Positions 17,091 through 25,476 of a stretch of DNA of 64,000 nt are shown here, one piece after another. Position numbers and translations under genes: made by a program. This DNA comes from Phycisphaerales bacterium (GTDB taxonomy: Bacteria; Planctomycetota; Phycisphaerae; Phycisphaerales; SM1A02), in the NCBI GenBank assembly GCA_029242715.1, contig JAQWTL010000019.1, positions 1-64,000 of the forward strand, read 5' to 3'. The notes under the pieces were generated by a model. That model was not told the DNA's origin, made no database searches, and saw only the letters and a list, made by a program, of their open reading frames with translations. The stretch's first letter is position 1, and the number at the start of each line of letters is the position of its first letter.

Positions 17091-17199
17091 TCTGTGCGGT
17101 CTTTTCTTGGACTATGCTTCCCCAGAGGGTAGCCTCTTGTTGGATCTATTACCGGCCAGGGCCTTCGCGAGGCCTCCCCGGATAACAGGGAGAGAGTCC

Positions 17200-17922
17200 A
17201 TGTTCCGTCATATTTTATCAGCGGTTGGCTGCATCGTTCTCACGACATCCTTGGCGACGGCGTCAACGTACCGTGGGCCATCTTATGTCGAGCCCGGTGA
17301 TGATGCCGGTTCCTCACGTGACGATGCGGCGGACGTCAAGAATCCAAACGGCACGGGCCAGATCAATTCCATCAGTGGTTCATTGACTGGTGGCGGAGGC
17401 TTGGTCAACCTGGATGGTGACTACCAGGATGTGTTCAGGATCTTTATCAAAGATCCCTGGGCATTCAAGATCCAGCTTGGTGACATGGGAACGAACATCC
17501 CTGACTCCATGATGTTCCTCTTCAATGAGTTTGGTAATCCCGTGATGGCAAGTGACAACACGAGTTCACAGAACTTCAATCCGATTCTGGAAAACCTTGA
17601 AGGTGAGTTCTTCAATGAATCCGGCATCTACTATCTCGCCATCACTTCCGCACCATCGGAAGCATTGATTGATCTTGGTGGCGGAGCGGTTGTCCCACTG
17701 TTCAATCTGGTCGAGTTCCCATTCGGAACCGTCGGGCCAGCTCCAGACGCTGGCCAATACCAGTGGACAGATGGTTGGTCACCACCCACAGATTCGAACA
17801 ATATCGGCGATTACTTCATGTACGTCGATGGCGTTGAATCATTGCCACTCGTTCCAGGGCCTGCGGGACTTGCTGTCCTCGGCATGGCTGGCATCATGGG
17901 CAGTCGTCGACGTCGCCGTTGA
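17200..17922 (+). CDS. secreted protein with PEP-CTERM-like anchor
   Basis: The 240-residue protein begins at an ATG behind GGGAGAGAG, has a signal peptide (HILSAVGCIVLTTSLATA) and a beta-rich middle resembling bacterial pre-peptidase or jelly-roll domains (DVFRIFIKDPWAFKIQ, YYLAITSAPSEALIDLGG). It ends VPGPAGLAVLGMAGIMG followed by five arginines. That is the planctomycete form of the PEP-CTERM sorting tail, normally processed by an exosortase; none is encoded here. A GC-rich hairpin (GGCCT/AGGCC around TCGCG, about 17159-17173) lies in its leader. It converges with the kinase gene. Function unknown, probably envelope or extracellular. Confidence 0.75.
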   Translation: MFRHILSAVGCIVLTTSLATASTYRGPSYVEPGDDAGSSRDDAADVKNPNGTGQINSISGSLTGGGGLVNLDGDYQDVFRIFIKDPWAFKIQLGDMGTNIPDSMMFLFNEFGNPVMASDNTSSQNFNPILENLEGEFFNESGIYYLAITSAPSEALIDLGGGAVVPLFNLVEFPFGTVGPAPDAGQYQWTDGWSPPTDSNNIGDYFMYVDGVESLPLVPGPAGLAVLGMAGIMGSRRRRR

Positions 17923-17951: not shown

Positions 17952-20681
17952 TCAATCACTGGTTGTTGAAACAGCCGGTGGTTGTGCATGTGATTGAAAG
18001 ATCTCTGCTTCACTGACCTTGCCTTGTTCTGAAAGAATGATGGCAAGGTCGCGGGCTACGGCACGAGCATGGGGTCTCTCAAGATATCCTTCCGACTCAA
18101 GGCTATTCCAGGCAGAACGCAGTCTTGCTTCAGCGTCCTGGGCGTGGCCTGATTGCCAGGCAGCGAGACCATTGAGGCGATCAATGGCTACGGAGTCTTC
18201 AGGCTTCTTTGAAGAGGCATAGTGGGTCTCAAGTCGTTCGATGATTGGCCTTGCCTGCTCGAGATCATTCCGGCGGATCAGGATCTCTGCGAGCACTTCA
18301 TCGGCATCAGTGACCAATCGATGGGTGGGTGACAAACGGCCGAATCGCTCCAGGCGAGCTTGCCGGATGAGGGCTTCGGCACGTTCAAACTCTCCGCGTC
18401 GCAACGCCAACTGCGCCAGGAGTACCTGGCCATTGGATATCCGTTTGGGTGAACCATTGAGTTCCTTGACGGTCTGTGCACGCTCGAGGTCCGCTGTCGC
18501 ACCATCCAGATCATCAATGGACAACTTGGCCAGGCCTGAACTACTGAGCATGTTGGCAACCCTCCAGTCGGCTTTGGGGTCTGCGCCACCTTGGATCATC
18601 ATGTCGATGGCGCGATCCAATTTTGGAATCGCCTTTTCGGGTTGCCTGAAGAGATGCTGGTAGGCCAGCGAGTTGAGTACATCGGCCATATCCAGCTGGA
18701 GTTCGCGACGCAGGTCCGGATCCGACTCGGTTTCCAGTCGTGCCTCCATGAGACGTAACGCTTCTTCAAACAGTACCCTCGCCTGCTGGGTCTCCTTGTT
18801 CGCCTGCAGAATGAAGGCGAGGTGTCTCATCGTGATGAGGGTGTCTTCATGATCAGCGGGAAGCCAGCGTTTTCGAAGCTCAAAGGCTTGCTTGTAATGC
18901 CGGGCAGATTCCTGTTTCTGTCCCTTCAGCCATGCCAATCGGCCAAGGTTATGAAGTACGAAGCTCATCTTGGCTGAATCGCTGAGCCCAAGTTTTTCAT
19001 AGGACTCCCGTGCATCTGTCAGGGCTTCTTCTGCCTCGCCAAATCGTGAGAGGCTCATGAAGTTTTTGCCCAGATCGATATTCAGGCGTGCGGAGAGATC
19101 AGGGAACTCGGCCAGGTTCGCGTTGATGATGCCGGACCAGCGTTGCATGATCTCGACCATGCTCCGAGCAGCCATTGGTTGATCCGGGTTTTCCAGATCC
19201 AGCTCGCCCAGCAGTGCGGTAGCGCTGACAAGCATTTGATCAGATGTCCGATTGAAATGATCTGCTTTTTCCCAGAGAACTGTCATGAAGATCGCAAATG
19301 CAGCCAGCACCATGACCGCTGCTGCTGCTGCGGATACGGGCAACCAGTGCCGCCTGAGAAACTTGCGAGCGACGTACCAGGCATCATCACGCCGGGCTTC
19401 AATGGCTTCTCCCTTGAGCCAATGTCGGACGTCATCGGCCAGTGCCATGGGCGACTGGTAACGGCGATCGACATCCTTGTCGAGGGCACGGAGGAGGACC
19501 GTCTCGATATCGCGATCGATTGTTTCATCAAGACTTGAGGGTGAGACAGGAGGTTCATTCATGATGGCGTTGACCATCTGAGCAATCGAACCCGTCACCC
19601 TGTAGGGGCGTTGGCCGAGCAGGAATTCATAGAGGATGACGCCTAGCGCATAGACGTCCGTCCTGGTATCGACCCTGTCCGGATCGCCGGAGACCTGTTC
19701 AGGTGAGGCGAAGGCGAACGTGCCCATGAACTCGCCTGCTGCAGTCATTTCGTATTGCGACTCGGTGACCTGGGCAGTTTCGGTGGCTTTGGCAAGACCG
19801 AAATCAAGCACATGTGGCGCACCATCATGATCAACCATGATGTTGGCTGGCTTCAGGTCACGGTGGATGATGCCACGTTGATGGGCGAAGCTGACCGCAT
19901 CGCATGCCTTGACGAAGAGCTTCGCTTTTTCCCGCATGTCGGGATCGCGAAGAGATCCACCTTTCGTTTTAACCTTGTAATCCGTCAGGGCGACCCCGTC
20001 GATGAATTCCATCGCCAGGAATGCATTACCCTCATCCGTGAGTCCGCTGTCATACAACGTCACGATATTGGGATGCTTCAAAGAGGCGACCAGTTCGACT
20101 TCCCGTTCGAATCGCATTTTCTGTCGGTCGTTGGCGAAGCTTCCCTGGAGCATCACCTTCAGGGCAACGTCCCGTTTGGCAGCAATCTGACGGGCGAGGA
20201 AGACAGCGCCCTGGGCGCCCCGGTCGATTTCTCGAAGGACTTCGTACCCCTGAGGCGTTGGCGCATCGAGCATTGATTTGCCGGGCTTTACCTGTTCCCG
20301 GTGAACCTCCGCAAGCTCCTCGAAGAGATTCGCATCATTCTTCAGTTGCTCGATTTCCTCACGAACGCTTCCATCATCTTCTTGCTCAAGCCAGATCTCG
20401 ACAGCAGGATCAACACGCCTTCCCTCAGCAATCTTGTGCATGTCGACGACGGTCGGCCGCCTTGGAACAAGATCAACAGATCCAGACGTCGAATCAGGCG
20501 CTTCACTGGCATCGGAGACATCGAGTTCGGCGATGCCCAGTTCTTCCCGGGCTTTCTGAAGAAGGTGGCCTTCGGGGTCATTGGTGTTGAGCCAGGTCAT
20601 GACCTCAGATTCAACGGTTCCACCTGAGACGATGGCATGGAGTTCTTCTTCGGTGGGGCGACGTTGCCTGGAGGAGGTCAC
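17952..20681 (-). CDS. transmembrane Ser/Thr protein kinase with TPR sensor domain
   Basis: This 909-residue protein has a Pkn2-type kinase domain at residues 145-420: Gly loop IDRGAQGAVF, Lys175 in VALKVML, HRDLKPAN at 273-280 and DFG at 293-295. A transmembrane helix at about 446-470 follows, then about 400 residues of tetratricopeptide repeats outside the membrane. Before the kinase, two copies of a 40-residue motif occur (residues 9-49 and 76-116), both running PT-x4-H-x-I-x2-G and then V-x3-V-x2-WL. They resemble cysteine-free versions of small anti-sigma domains. The GTG start overlaps the stop of the sigma factor gene, so kinase and sigma factor are co-made and probably form one signalling unit. 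Confidence 0.9.
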   Translation of the reverse strand: MTSSRQRRPTEEELHAIVSGGTVESEVMTWLNTNDPEGHLLQKAREELGIAELDVSDASEAPDSTSGSVDLVPRRPTVVDMHKIAEGRRVDPAVEIWLEQEDDGSVREEIEQLKNDANLFEELAEVHREQVKPGKSMLDAPTPQGYEVLREIDRGAQGAVFLARQIAAKRDVALKVMLQGSFANDRQKMRFEREVELVASLKHPNIVTLYDSGLTDEGNAFLAMEFIDGVALTDYKVKTKGGSLRDPDMREKAKLFVKACDAVSFAHQRGIIHRDLKPANIMVDHDGAPHVLDFGLAKATETAQVTESQYEMTAAGEFMGTFAFASPEQVSGDPDRVDTRTDVYALGVILYEFLLGQRPYRVTGSIAQMVNAIMNEPPVSPSSLDETIDRDIETVLLRALDKDVDRRYQSPMALADDVRHWLKGEAIEARRDDAWYVARKFLRRHWLPVSAAAAAVMVLAAFAIFMTVLWEKADHFNRTSDQMLVSATALLGELDLENPDQPMAARSMVEIMQRWSGIINANLAEFPDLSARLNIDLGKNFMSLSRFGEAEEALTDARESYEKLGLSDSAKMSFVLHNLGRLAWLKGQKQESARHYKQAFELRKRWLPADHEDTLITMRHLAFILQANKETQQARVLFEEALRLMEARLETESDPDLRRELQLDMADVLNSLAYQHLFRQPEKAIPKLDRAIDMMIQGGADPKADWRVANMLSSSGLAKLSIDDLDGATADLERAQTVKELNGSPKRISNGQVLLAQLALRRGEFERAEALIRQARLERFGRLSPTHRLVTDADEVLAEILIRRNDLEQARPIIERLETHYASSKKPEDSVAIDRLNGLAAWQSGHAQDAEARLRSAWNSLESEGYLERPHARAVARDLAIILSEQGKVSEAEIFQSHAQPPAVSTTSD

Positions 20682-21283
20682 ACCGCGTCCTCATCGTAGA
20701 GCGACTCGATCGACGCCACAATCTCTTTCAGTTTGGCAGCGACACGGCTCTTGGCGAGATAGACATCGTTCTCCGAGATGTCGAGTTCAGCAGCAACTGC
20801 AGCAACCGATTGTTGCTGCAAGGCGACCATCTCGAAAGCTCGAACGGTCTTGTCAGCGATCTTGGTGGAGTTCTTCAATTGCTCCATCGCCGTTCGCAGG
20901 ATGGTCATACGACGTTCCGTATTCCACGCTTCTTCGATTTCAGCCTCACGAGGCAAGTCGACGATTGCAGACTCCCCACGGCTGACACGGCTGGTAGCAC
21001 GTTTGCGATAGATGCCTGCTACACGGAAGCGGGCGATTCCAAGCAACCAGGAACGGAGTCGGCCGCGATCCCGGTCATACTTGCCTTCGCGATATTCCTT
21101 GATGAACTGGACCATGGTTTCCTGGGCAACGTCAACGGCATCCGCCTCGGGCAGTCCGAGTCGACGGGAAAAGCCGATCAGGATCGGTCGATAGCGCTCA
21201 TCAAACTCTCTCCACGCAGCTTCGTTGTCGGCCTCGTGGAGATTGTTGAGCAGGGCAGTAGTTGTTCGGCTGGCCTCGGCCAT
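20678..21283 (-). CDS. ECF-type RNA polymerase sigma factor
   Basis: The 201-residue protein has sigma region 2 (AWREFDERYRPILIGFSRRLG, with ADAVDVAQETMVQFIKEY and RSWLLGIARFRV). A linker follows, then region 4 with a helix-turn-helix (QQQSVAAVAAELDISENDVYLAKSRV). It resembles planctomycete ECF groups that travel with Ser/Thr kinases. It directs RNA polymerase to a dedicated promoter set. Its last codon overlaps the kinase GTG (GTGA), which implies stoichiometric expression and control by the kinase. No classical anti-sigma gene is adjacent. Confidence 0.9.
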   Translation of the reverse strand: MAEASRTTTALLNNLHEADNEAAWREFDERYRPILIGFSRRLGLPEADAVDVAQETMVQFIKEYREGKYDRDRGRLRSWLLGIARFRVAGIYRKRATSRVSRGESAIVDLPREAEIEEAWNTERRMTILRTAMEQLKNSTKIADKTVRAFEMVALQQQSVAAVAAELDISENDVYLAKSRVAAKLKEIVASIESLYDEDAV

Positions 21284-23856: not shown

Positions 23857-25476
23857 ATGTCAGTTTTCCCCCTCGTGGCCCTTGCCATCGCGATCAGTGC
23901 TGCTGAACAGTTTCAGGGCCCCCCGATCTCGGATGAACCCATTCTTCGTGATGGACAACTGGTCTTTCCCGAAGGTGCTCATATTCCAAAATCCATGACG
24001 CAGACAGAGCTGGACTTTCTGGACGGCCAGATCATCCAGACACCTCGCGGCGTGACACCACCTCCCGTGGGTCCCATCCGGGGTGCATCGGAGTACGAGG
24101 ACATGGCCGGAATTCTCCTGGCCTGGGAGGGCTATTCCTCGATCGTTGCTGAGATGGCAGCAGCCATCACGACGGTCGGAAACGCCAAGGTCTTCATTGC
24201 CTGCGATTCCAACAGCGAGGCCAACACGGCCCGCAACTCATGTATTTCAGCAGGTGCCAATTCTGCAAATGTGATCACGGTGGTGCGTACGACCAACACC
24301 GTCTGGATTCGCGACTATGGCCCACGCTACGTATACGAGGGCGACTGCCGGGTCATCGTTGACCACACGTACAACAGGCCACGGCCCAATGACAATGCCT
24401 ACAGTTCATACTTTGGTCCGCAGTTCGGGCACGAGGTCTACGAGATTCCCTTGGTACATGGTGGCGGCAACTACCACCTCAATGGCATCGGCACCAGTGC
24501 AGCAACCGAGTTGATCATGAATGAGAATCCTGGTTTATCCGAATCCCAGATCGTGCAGTACTGGCGTGACTATCAGAATGTCGACACCTACATTCATGAT
24601 GCCTTTCCCACATCAGTCGACTACACCCAGCACATCGACATGTGGATGTTGATGTGTGGTGATGACCGCATCATCATCAGCGACTGGCCGACGCAATCGG
24701 GCAGCACGCAGGATCAGATCTGCGACTGGGCTGCCGGTTATTACCAGGGTCTCGGCTGGGATGTGTTCCGTGTACCCGCTTTCTCGCAGGGTGGAACCCA
24801 CTACACCTATGCCAACATGGTGGTCTGCAACGGCGTGGTGCTGTTGCCCAAGTACAACGACATTTCAGATACCTATGACAACCAGGCAGTCGCTGCGGTG
24901 CAGGCCGCCATGCCTGATCGAGAGGTCGTTCAGATCACCTGTGACAGCCTGGCCTATTCCGCCGGCGTCATGCATTGCATCTGCATGCACATGCCGGCAC
25001 ATGCCGGTGGCATCTACCCAACGACCTGCCTGCAGACACCAGTCGAGGGGATCATTGACCCCGATGACTGCCCCAATATCTCCTGGATCAGCGACGATGA
25101 TGAGTTCGATGTCACCTCTGTCGATATCCAGTACTCCACCAATGACGGGGCCACATGGACAACCCTCCAGGCAGGCCTCTCGCCAGCTGGATCAACGACT
25201 GTTTGCATCCCGGATACGCCGACCACTCAAGGCCGTCTGCAAGTACTGGCCCGTGACGGAGATGGCAACACAGGCGGTCAAATCAGTGGCACCATCATCA
25301 TCGAAGGCGATGCCCTCGAAGGTGATGTGGACGGCGATGGTGATGTCGATGTCGTTGATGTCCTGGCCGTGATTGCCGACTGGGACTGCGTCGATGACTG
25401 TGCAGGGGATGTGAACGGCGACTCCATCGTGAATGTCGAGGACATTCTCGTGGTACTGGCCAACTTCGGTTTATGA
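23857..25476 (+). CDS. secreted agmatine deiminase/peptidyl-arginine deiminase-like protein with dockerin tail
   Basis: The 539-residue protein has a signal peptide, then a guanidino-modifying fold of the agmatine deiminase/Porphyromonas-type PAD family. WIRDYGP lies near residue 149, HGGGN near 201, the catalytic histidine in QHIDMW near 258, and the cysteine in GVMHCICMHMP near 373. An Ig-like beta domain follows (VDIQYSTNDGATWTTLQ), then two dockerin loops (DVDGDGDVDVVDVL, DVNGDSIVNVEDIL) and an end at ANFGL. The family hydrolyses a guanidinium group to a ureido group plus ammonia. Export suggests agmatine or peptidyl-arginine outside the cell as substrate, but which is not clear. Confidence 0.85.
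   Translation: MSVFPLVALAIAISAAEQFQGPPISDEPILRDGQLVFPEGAHIPKSMTQTELDFLDGQIIQTPRGVTPPPVGPIRGASEYEDMAGILLAWEGYSSIVAEMAAAITTVGNAKVFIACDSNSEANTARNSCISAGANSANVITVVRTTNTVWIRDYGPRYVYEGDCRVIVDHTYNRPRPNDNAYSSYFGPQFGHEVYEIPLVHGGGNYHLNGIGTSAATELIMNENPGLSESQIVQYWRDYQNVDTYIHDAFPTSVDYTQHIDMWMLMCGDDRIIISDWPTQSGSTQDQICDWAAGYYQGLGWDVFRVPAFSQGGTHYTYANMVVCNGVVLLPKYNDISDTYDNQAVAAVQAAMPDREVVQITCDSLAYSAGVMHCICMHMPAHAGGIYPTTCLQTPVEGIIDPDDCPNISWISDDDEFDVTSVDIQYSTNDGATWTTLQAGLSPAGSTTVCIPDTPTTQGRLQVLARDGDGNTGGQISGTIIIEGDALEGDVDGDGDVDVVDVLAVIADWDCVDDCAGDVNGDSIVNVEDILVVLANFGL

Follow-up and report, generated by a model that had tools for sequence, protein, structure and literature searches.

The gene pair described here lies on the minus strand, at positions 17952 to 21283, of a 64,000-nucleotide window that comprises positions 1 to 64,000 of contig JAQWTL010000019.1 (assembly GCA_029242715.1), from a bacterium of the planctomycete order Phycisphaerales. 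The pair consists of a gene for an extracytoplasmic function (ECF) sigma factor and, directly behind it, a gene for a transmembrane Ser/Thr protein kinase (STPK) of the Hanks type. The kinase is probably also an anti-sigma factor, with a predicted class I anti-sigma domain (ASDI), doubled and lacking zinc ligands, at its N-terminus. The features of the pair are as follows.

20678..21283, minus strand: ECF-type sigma factor, 201 residues (Sigma70_r2, E 1.4e-8; TIGR02937 sigma70-ECF; TIGR02989)
21257..21265, minus strand: sigma residues T7-T9, almost always Ser/Thr (alignment of relatives)
21131..21142, minus strand: acidic motif DAVD of sigma region 2.2, residues 48-51 (alignment of relatives)
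20678..20681, minus strand: GTGA overlap of 4 bases, kinase start codon over sigma stop codon
17952..20681, minus strand: Hanks-type Ser/Thr kinase, 909 residues, with a predicted membrane helix and a tetratricopeptide repeat (TPR) C-terminus (Pkinase, TPR_12)
20535..20660, minus strand: copy 1 of the N-terminal unit, kinase residues 8-49 (helices 11-18, 25-34 and 39-47; without the long last helix)
20292..20459, minus strand: copy 2 of the N-terminal unit, kinase residues 75-130 (helices 78-85, 92-100 and 105-130; complete unit)
19437..20246, minus strand: kinase catalytic domain, residues 146-415 (VALK 172-175, HRDLKP from 273, DFG from 293)
19275..19331, minus strand: predicted transmembrane helix, residues 451-469 (mean hydropathy 2.52 over 19 residues)
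18003..19091, minus strand: TPR region, residues about 531-893 (TPR_12, TPR_10 and TPR_19 matches)

The sigma factor scored 48.6 bits against TIGR02937, above the cutoff of 42.9, and 50.2 bits against TIGR02989, the Rhodopirellula/Verrucomicrobium family, which is below the cutoff of 124.55. The kinase gene starts with GTG, and the overlap of its start with the sigma stop, which an earlier note on this DNA had pointed out, was found as described. The kinase matched Pkinase with an E value of 1.4e-43 (149.6 bits) and TPR_12 with an E value of 3.9e-21; its nearest solved chains are those of PknB, and it is one of 27 Pkinase matches in its genome. It is expected to be active because the VALK lysine and the HRD and DFG residues that define Hanks-type kinases are all in place. 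A single transmembrane helix is predicted, so the TPR region is expected on the far side of the membrane. A predicted membrane helix follows the kinase domain in 27 of the 29 full-length named relatives, with several helices in the relative from locus L234.

Matches to the sigma factor were obtained at E <= 0.001 in 176 of 201 genomes sampled from the order and at E <= 1e-10 in 91 of 392 genomes sampled from the phylum, many of the weaker matches being other ECF sigma factors. A kinase gene lay directly behind the sigma gene in 112 of 122 fetched loci, 12 of which (L070-L081) had been found by the kinase N-terminus rather than by the sigma factor; loci L116, L161 and L163 are left out of the alignment. 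A stricter extraction, from which the weak matches outside the sigma family (L250-L262) were left out, recovered the order of sigma gene and then kinase gene in 259 of 288 loci that were picked for a related sigma or kinase gene and are partly redundant, and removal of near-identical sigma factors left 195 distinct pairs. This extraction missed 23 of 200 and 6 of 88 loci, and some of the 23 (e.g., L078, L101 and L142) do have the kinase by the looser extraction. Of the 195 distinct pairs, 86 could use a start codon at offset -4, and in 153 the kinase frame is open back across the sigma stop; offset -4 was chosen in 59 of 112 pairs, a count that leans toward -4, since the start nearest to it was picked. 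One long-frame locus, L178, was fetched as a possible natural fusion of sigma factor and kinase and was rejected, as its long frame lies upstream of the sigma gene and ends at the sigma stop, with the kinase in another frame. A second sigma-kinase pair is present in the genome of the window itself (G000:C9:46217-49300; L095, L351), and its kinase begins with a single zinc-less domain of the anti-sigma type.

The relatives reveal what kind of domain occupies the kinase N-terminus. The motif H-x3-C-x2-C was found in the kinase N-terminus of 159 of the 195 distinct pairs, 155 of which have a further cysteine 15 to 60 residues upstream. The zinc-type sigma-kinase pair is thus widespread in the order and also occurs elsewhere in the phylum (e.g., L175, L188 and L195). 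A profile built from 87 zinc-type kinase N-termini (of 115 listed) gave 10 matches in the PDB at E <= 10, the best three of which were RsiW (5wuq; E 1.4e-4), RslA (3hug; E 0.0049) and DdvA (8rlz; E 0.011). ChrR (2z2s) matched only at an E value of 0.25, and the remainder were copper chaperones, a CHAT protein and a collagen fusion. The family zf-HC2 was matched at E <= 0.1 by 28 of the 87 N-termini. These results point to the zinc-type kinase N-termini being class I anti-sigma domains, on the evidence of their sequence profiles. RsiW, RslA and ChrR likewise possess the H-x3-C-x2-C unit and are encoded beside an ECF sigma factor, whereas in the pairs described here the domain is joined to a Hanks-type kinase on one chain and, in the window, is both zinc-less and doubled. 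RseA and RskA resemble the window's domain in having no zinc ligands but differ in carrying no kinase on the chain; in both, the sigma factor is released by proteolysis. A side match of the zinc-type profile, weak at an E value of 0.28, fell on residues 7-47 of 8rot_B, a solved 991-residue protein with a CHAT domain, and hints at other enzyme fusions of the anti-sigma domain.

The window kinase is connected to the zinc-type domains through zinc-less intermediates. In one-against-one hhalign comparisons, to which all hhalign E values given here refer, the zinc-less single-copy units of g16, g23 and g27 (12 rows) matched the zinc type (121 rows) at 96.5% with an E value of 8.6e-10, and copy 1 of the window's genus (5 rows) matched these zinc-less single-copy units at 98.6% and copy 2 at 86.7%. 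Against the hidden Markov model (HMM) of the zinc type, copy 1 scored 7.9 bits, above all of 2000 shuffled sequences (best, 6.3 bits). In a search of the window's own genome, the zinc-type profile gave a single match at E <= 0.1, which was the zinc-less N-terminus of a paralogous kinase encoded behind its own sigma gene (E 2.8e-8). In the class at large, about 44% of ASDIs are reported to have no zinc motif (PMC7406223; here and below, statements on papers cited by PMC number refer to excerpts of them).

Contact between the domain and its sigma factor was examined through covariation. Mean-field couplings were calculated for 158 distinct cognate pairs of the zinc type (effective number, 140) and compared with 40 re-pairings at random and 40 within clades. 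The top 10 couplings averaged 1.21, with at most 1.14 in the random and 1.12 in the within-clade re-pairings, and the top 25 averaged 1.06, with at most 0.94 and 0.97, respectively. Among the top 30 couplings, 15 fell on residues 56-66 of the last helix, in the numbering of L045 (7.2 on average and at most 14 after re-pairing), and sigma residues from 120 on were the partners in 10 of these 15 (at most 8 after re-pairing); these two counts of helix against sigma region 4 were chosen after the couplings had been seen, and the top-10 and top-25 comparisons were not. Sigma residue D51 of the DAxD motif was among the top coupled pairs. A first run with 120 pairs had placed sigma R186 and a glutamate of helix 1 among the top pairs, and this pair is outside the top 30 in the larger set. 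In the ASDI class, helix 4 has been described to covary with sigma region 2 and helix 1 with region 4 (PMC7406223); here the strongest block joins the long last helix to region 4, so that the agreement is in kind rather than in every detail.

A structure model agrees with such contact. The AlphaFold2 model of a single chain made of the L045 sigma factor, a linker and the domain, for which 15 of 19 same-frame loci were used, had a mean predicted local distance difference test (pLDDT) score of 86.3 and a predicted template modelling (pTM) score of 0.79, with domain pLDDT values of 91 to 94 in residues 221-260 and of 84 in residues 261-270. The pTM is high for small parts on flexible links, suggesting that the three parts of the chain pack together in the model. 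When the whole sigma factor was superposed on known structures, it fitted to about 12 Å on several anti-sigma-bound chains and to about 21 to 26 Å on polymerase-bound ones, in alignments that hardly cover the anti-sigma part; the modelled sigma factor is nearer to the anti-sigma-bound than to the polymerase-bound forms and is like neither. Sigma binding by the domain is well supported for the zinc-type relatives, and by homology we infer that it also takes place in the window's own pair. The proposal of the earlier note that the kinase holds the sigma factor through its duplicated motifs thus finds backing, from covariation and the one-chain model, in the single zinc-type domain of the relatives; for the window's own pair it is carried over by homology, and copy 1 does not have the covarying helix.

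Several results count against an anti-sigma domain in the window kinase. The zinc-type profile misses this kinase at E <= 0.1 in the search of its genome, and a Pfam scan of the window N-terminus by itself gave nothing at E <= 1. Direct hhalign comparison with the zinc type gave only 51% for copy 1 and 38% for copy 2, and copy 2 produced only split matches to the zinc-type HMM, of 3.2 and 1.8 bits (best shuffle, 7.8 bits). The mostly zinc-less A3 profile had 24 matches in the PDB, to designed and other helical proteins and to no anti-sigma factor, and a Foldseek search with the model of the window N-terminus returned no match at E <= 0.001 (best E, 1.1). As for contact with the sigma factor, the single best coupling is not significant, being reached by 1 of the 40 random re-pairings; covariation was measured on zinc-type pairs only; and the L045 model, for which the cognate chain alone was folded, fits known sigma factors only domain by domain. 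The likeness to small anti-sigma domains without the zinc cysteines, which the earlier note saw by eye, is supported by way of the zinc-less intermediates and of the PDB matches of the zinc type, and the direct comparison of the window copies with the zinc type is weak. When the window N-terminus was searched against its own genome, the only match besides itself was a weak one (E 0.243). The one NCBIfam match of the N-terminus by itself, TIGR02268 (E 0.0089; 15.4 bits against a cutoff of 76.15), was judged a chance match.

These results allow for an N-terminus that is an ordinary helical tail of the kinase, with the overlap serving translational coupling and the likeness to anti-sigma domains due to chance among short helices. 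Taken by themselves, the zinc-less members do look like generic helices in the Foldseek and A3 searches, and neither Pfam nor the zinc-type profile recognizes the window N-terminus. However, relatives have a zinc-type domain at the same position behind a related partner gene, the profile links run through the zinc-less units to the zinc type, whose profile also picks out the paralogue in the same genome, and the domain covaries with its cognate sigma factor. An ordinary tail is accordingly very improbable.

An alternative that accepts the contact is that the N-terminal domain is a docking arm, which brings the sigma factor to the kinase domain for activation by phosphorylation. The ECF43 pairs EcfP/PknT and EcfK/PknS also have the ECF sigma gene beside an STPK gene, and PknS, like the window kinase, is a transmembrane kinase whose N-terminal helical region is on a flexible linker; its 81 N-terminal residues are predicted to form three to four helices (PMC13147305), and those excerpts name no anti-sigma domain for PknS. 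In EcfP, DAED is replaced by STTA, and the protein has to be phosphorylated before it becomes active (PMC8999054). The planctomycete groups ECF59, ECF61, ECF62 and ECF217 have been listed as phosphorylation regulated because an STPK gene is nearby (PMC8999054), and in a second review a phosphorylated serine is described for ECF59 and a replaced motif for STPK-regulated ECFs (PMC8103513); both reviews thus place planctomycete groups beside STPK genes under control by phosphorylation. A conserved phosphoacceptor could serve such a route. The earlier note had suggested looking for conserved Ser/Thr in the sigma proteins of relatives, and these were found at T7-T9, where T7 is threonine in 112 of 112 relatives and positions 8 and 9 are each Ser/Thr in 111 of 112. 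This stretch is a candidate phosphosite or a helix cap.

Activation of the EcfP type is nevertheless argued against by the conservation of the acidic DAxD motif, since EcfP depends on phosphorylation because it lacks this motif. The window sigma factor has DAVD rather than the uncharged replacement seen in ECF43, and among aligned relatives the residue at position 48 is acidic in 103 of 112 and that at position 51 in 112 of 112. In addition, the domain belongs by profile to a family of inhibitors, and the sigma positions that covary with it, including D51 and region 4, are surfaces for polymerase and promoter. A docking arm is for these reasons considered unlikely. Because DAxD is kept, unlike in EcfP, the sigma factor should be able to bind polymerase unmodified and should then need an inhibitor.

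The reading preferred here is that the window kinase is probably a transmembrane receptor kinase that is at the same time an anti-sigma factor. The cytoplasmic N-terminus would serve as a class I anti-sigma domain and bind the sigma factor chiefly through its long last helix, placed against sigma regions 4 and 2, and the bound sigma factor would be kept off RNA polymerase and near the membrane. The single membrane helix would link the kinase domain to the TPR region outside, the presumed sensor. A signal would alter the kinase domain, and the grip might then change once the anti-sigma domain, its linker or the sigma factor has been phosphorylated, so that the sigma factor is freed (or reloaded). 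What the data show is the arrangement of the genes, the duplication, the chain of homology to anti-sigma domains, the covariation in zinc-type relatives, the catalytic residues and one predicted membrane helix; binding within the window's own pair, inhibition and the signal, as well as the release step, are inferred. Release by phosphorylation is the most economical guess, by analogy, because phosphorylation of the zinc anti-sigma factor RshA by the STPK PknB frees SigH in mycobacteria (PMC8999054, PMC13147305). In that system, the anti-sigma factor and the kinase are separate proteins, whereas here they would be one chain.

An anti-sigma domain inside the kinase, if true, would explain why such sigma factors keep the DAxD motif, would define in every pair a binding site that can be mutated, and would tie two of the main bacterial signalling routes together on one protein. 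No anti-sigma domain inside an ECF-paired STPK was named in the literature searched, with the 2021 ECF reclassification, the 2012 planctomycete genomics and supplements being outside the scope of the search. The excerpts of PMC8999054 make no mention of such a domain in the kinases of ECF59, ECF61, ECF62 or ECF217, and the words zinc and anti-sigma are absent from the main text of a survey of planctomycete Ser/Thr kinase architectures (PMC11032199), whose supplements were likewise outside the scope. It is not claimed that the arrangement is unreported.

The general arrangement, in which a receptor kinase paired with an ECF sigma factor carries an anti-sigma domain, matters more than its doubled, zinc-free form, which is a variant at the level of the genus. 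The sequence PT-x4-H-x-I-x2-G-x2-V-x3-V-x2-WL recurs exactly at kinase residues 9-31 and 76-98, and a local alignment of the two halves, with 12 of 29 positions identical, scored 61, a value equalled by none of 5000 shuffles (maximum, 54). The two 40-residue copies that the earlier note had described are therefore real as motifs, but they are unequal as units. In the model of the window N-terminus (residues 1-143; pLDDT 83.3, pTM 0.41), there are two well-predicted helical units whose relative placement is not fixed. Class I domains consist of a three-helix bundle and an additional helix for sigma region 2; the model shows two short helices and one long helix in copy 2 and three short helices in copy 1. 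Copy 2 ends in a 26-residue helix (105-130) and aligns with the single domain of relatives, whereas copy 1 stops after residue 47 except for a short helical turn. The histidine of the motif varies within the genus, being R and H in the two copies of L070 and L and Q in those of L073.

The H-x3-C-x2-C motif is absent from both window copies, as zinc ligands are from the window's genus and from some related genera. Where the zinc knuckle would be, the zinc-less copies have an acidic turn, located in the window at 20370-20381 (copy 2) and 20568-20582 (copy 1) and present at the same place in L041-L043, L074, L077 and L079. The turn reads D-x-D-G-[ST]-[VI] in single-copy relatives and EDDGSV and NDPEGHL in the window; it is two or three residues longer than the knuckle and somewhat resembles an EF-hand loop without the last acidic residue. 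An EF-hand reading was set aside, because the loop mostly ends in Leu or Ile where Glu would be expected (in Ala in copy 1) and because residues 101-104 are all that separates helices 92-100 and 105-130 in the model; EF-hand_9 was matched by 1 of 29 members, at an E value of 0.029.

The doubled unit was found only in the window's genus, in 5 of its 6 genomes. It recurs in G289-G292, each with the -4 overlap, and the sixth genome (G156) gave no match to the window N-terminus at E <= 0.1. A screen of 191 N-termini found no doubling outside the genus; its other high scorers, a Gly-rich stretch in L099 and a long low-complexity stretch in L187, were dismissed by eye. The earlier note had held that the absence of its motif from relatives that keep the gene pair would speak against its proposal, and it is the doubling that is absent outside the genus, while the domain itself is present in most pairs. 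When the zinc motif of the kinase is mapped on a FastTree phylogeny of 187 sigma factors, at least 5 changes are needed, and the five doubled rows form one clade with a support of 100. This clade falls inside a wider group of 18 rows, all zinc-less and including L328 and L332, on a branch with poor support (36). In L328 and L332, which belong to genus g5, the first part of the domain appears by eye to be lost and the last helix kept. L333 has likewise lost most of the domain and kept this helix, which has the form D..FL.EL or D..LLAEF in these kinases and corresponds to the part for which covariation with the sigma factor was seen in relatives. The branch with zinc-less and doubled forms is a natural series in which the contributions of zinc and of the last helix can be compared.

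Within the genus (5 genomes), the mean pairwise identity is 0.64 for copy 1, 0.68 for copy 2, 0.32 for the linker and 0.85 for the sigma factor. The identities of the copies are near each other and far above that of the linker, a pattern that fits selection on both copies. In the window's genus, the zinc ligands would have been lost and the domain doubled, with copy 2 as the complete sigma-binding unit and copy 1 as a shorter extra. A tentative proposal, for which the odds are a little short of even, is that the acidic turn has taken the place of the zinc knuckle, with an unproven chance of its binding another ion, and that the clamp, doubled as a complete and a partial unit, grips the sigma factor in two steps. 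Copy 1 might have a job of its own, either as the holder of a second sigma factor or as a cover over copy 2 at rest, which would make the N-terminus a two-site switch rather than a redundant pair. The conservation of copy 1 in the five genomes, at an identity near that of copy 2, would suit such a role, as would its lack of the last helix, where relatives show covariation with the sigma factor, and the presence of a second sigma-kinase pair in the genome. Set against this, the model does not fix the placement of copy 1 (pTM 0.41), and no interaction of copy 1 is known from this analysis. A separate role for copy 1 is rather doubtful; it would add to the reading of the kinase as an anti-sigma factor rather than exclude it.

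Two neighbouring genes on the plus strand were characterized by eye. The product of the convergent gene at 17107-17922 looks secreted and ends in a PEP-CTERM-like sorting signal (GPAGLAVLGMAGIMGSRRRRR), and the gene at 23857-25476 encodes a protein that resembles a secreted agmatine deiminase and has a dockerin-like C-terminus (DVDGDGDVDVVD... DVNGDSIVNVED).

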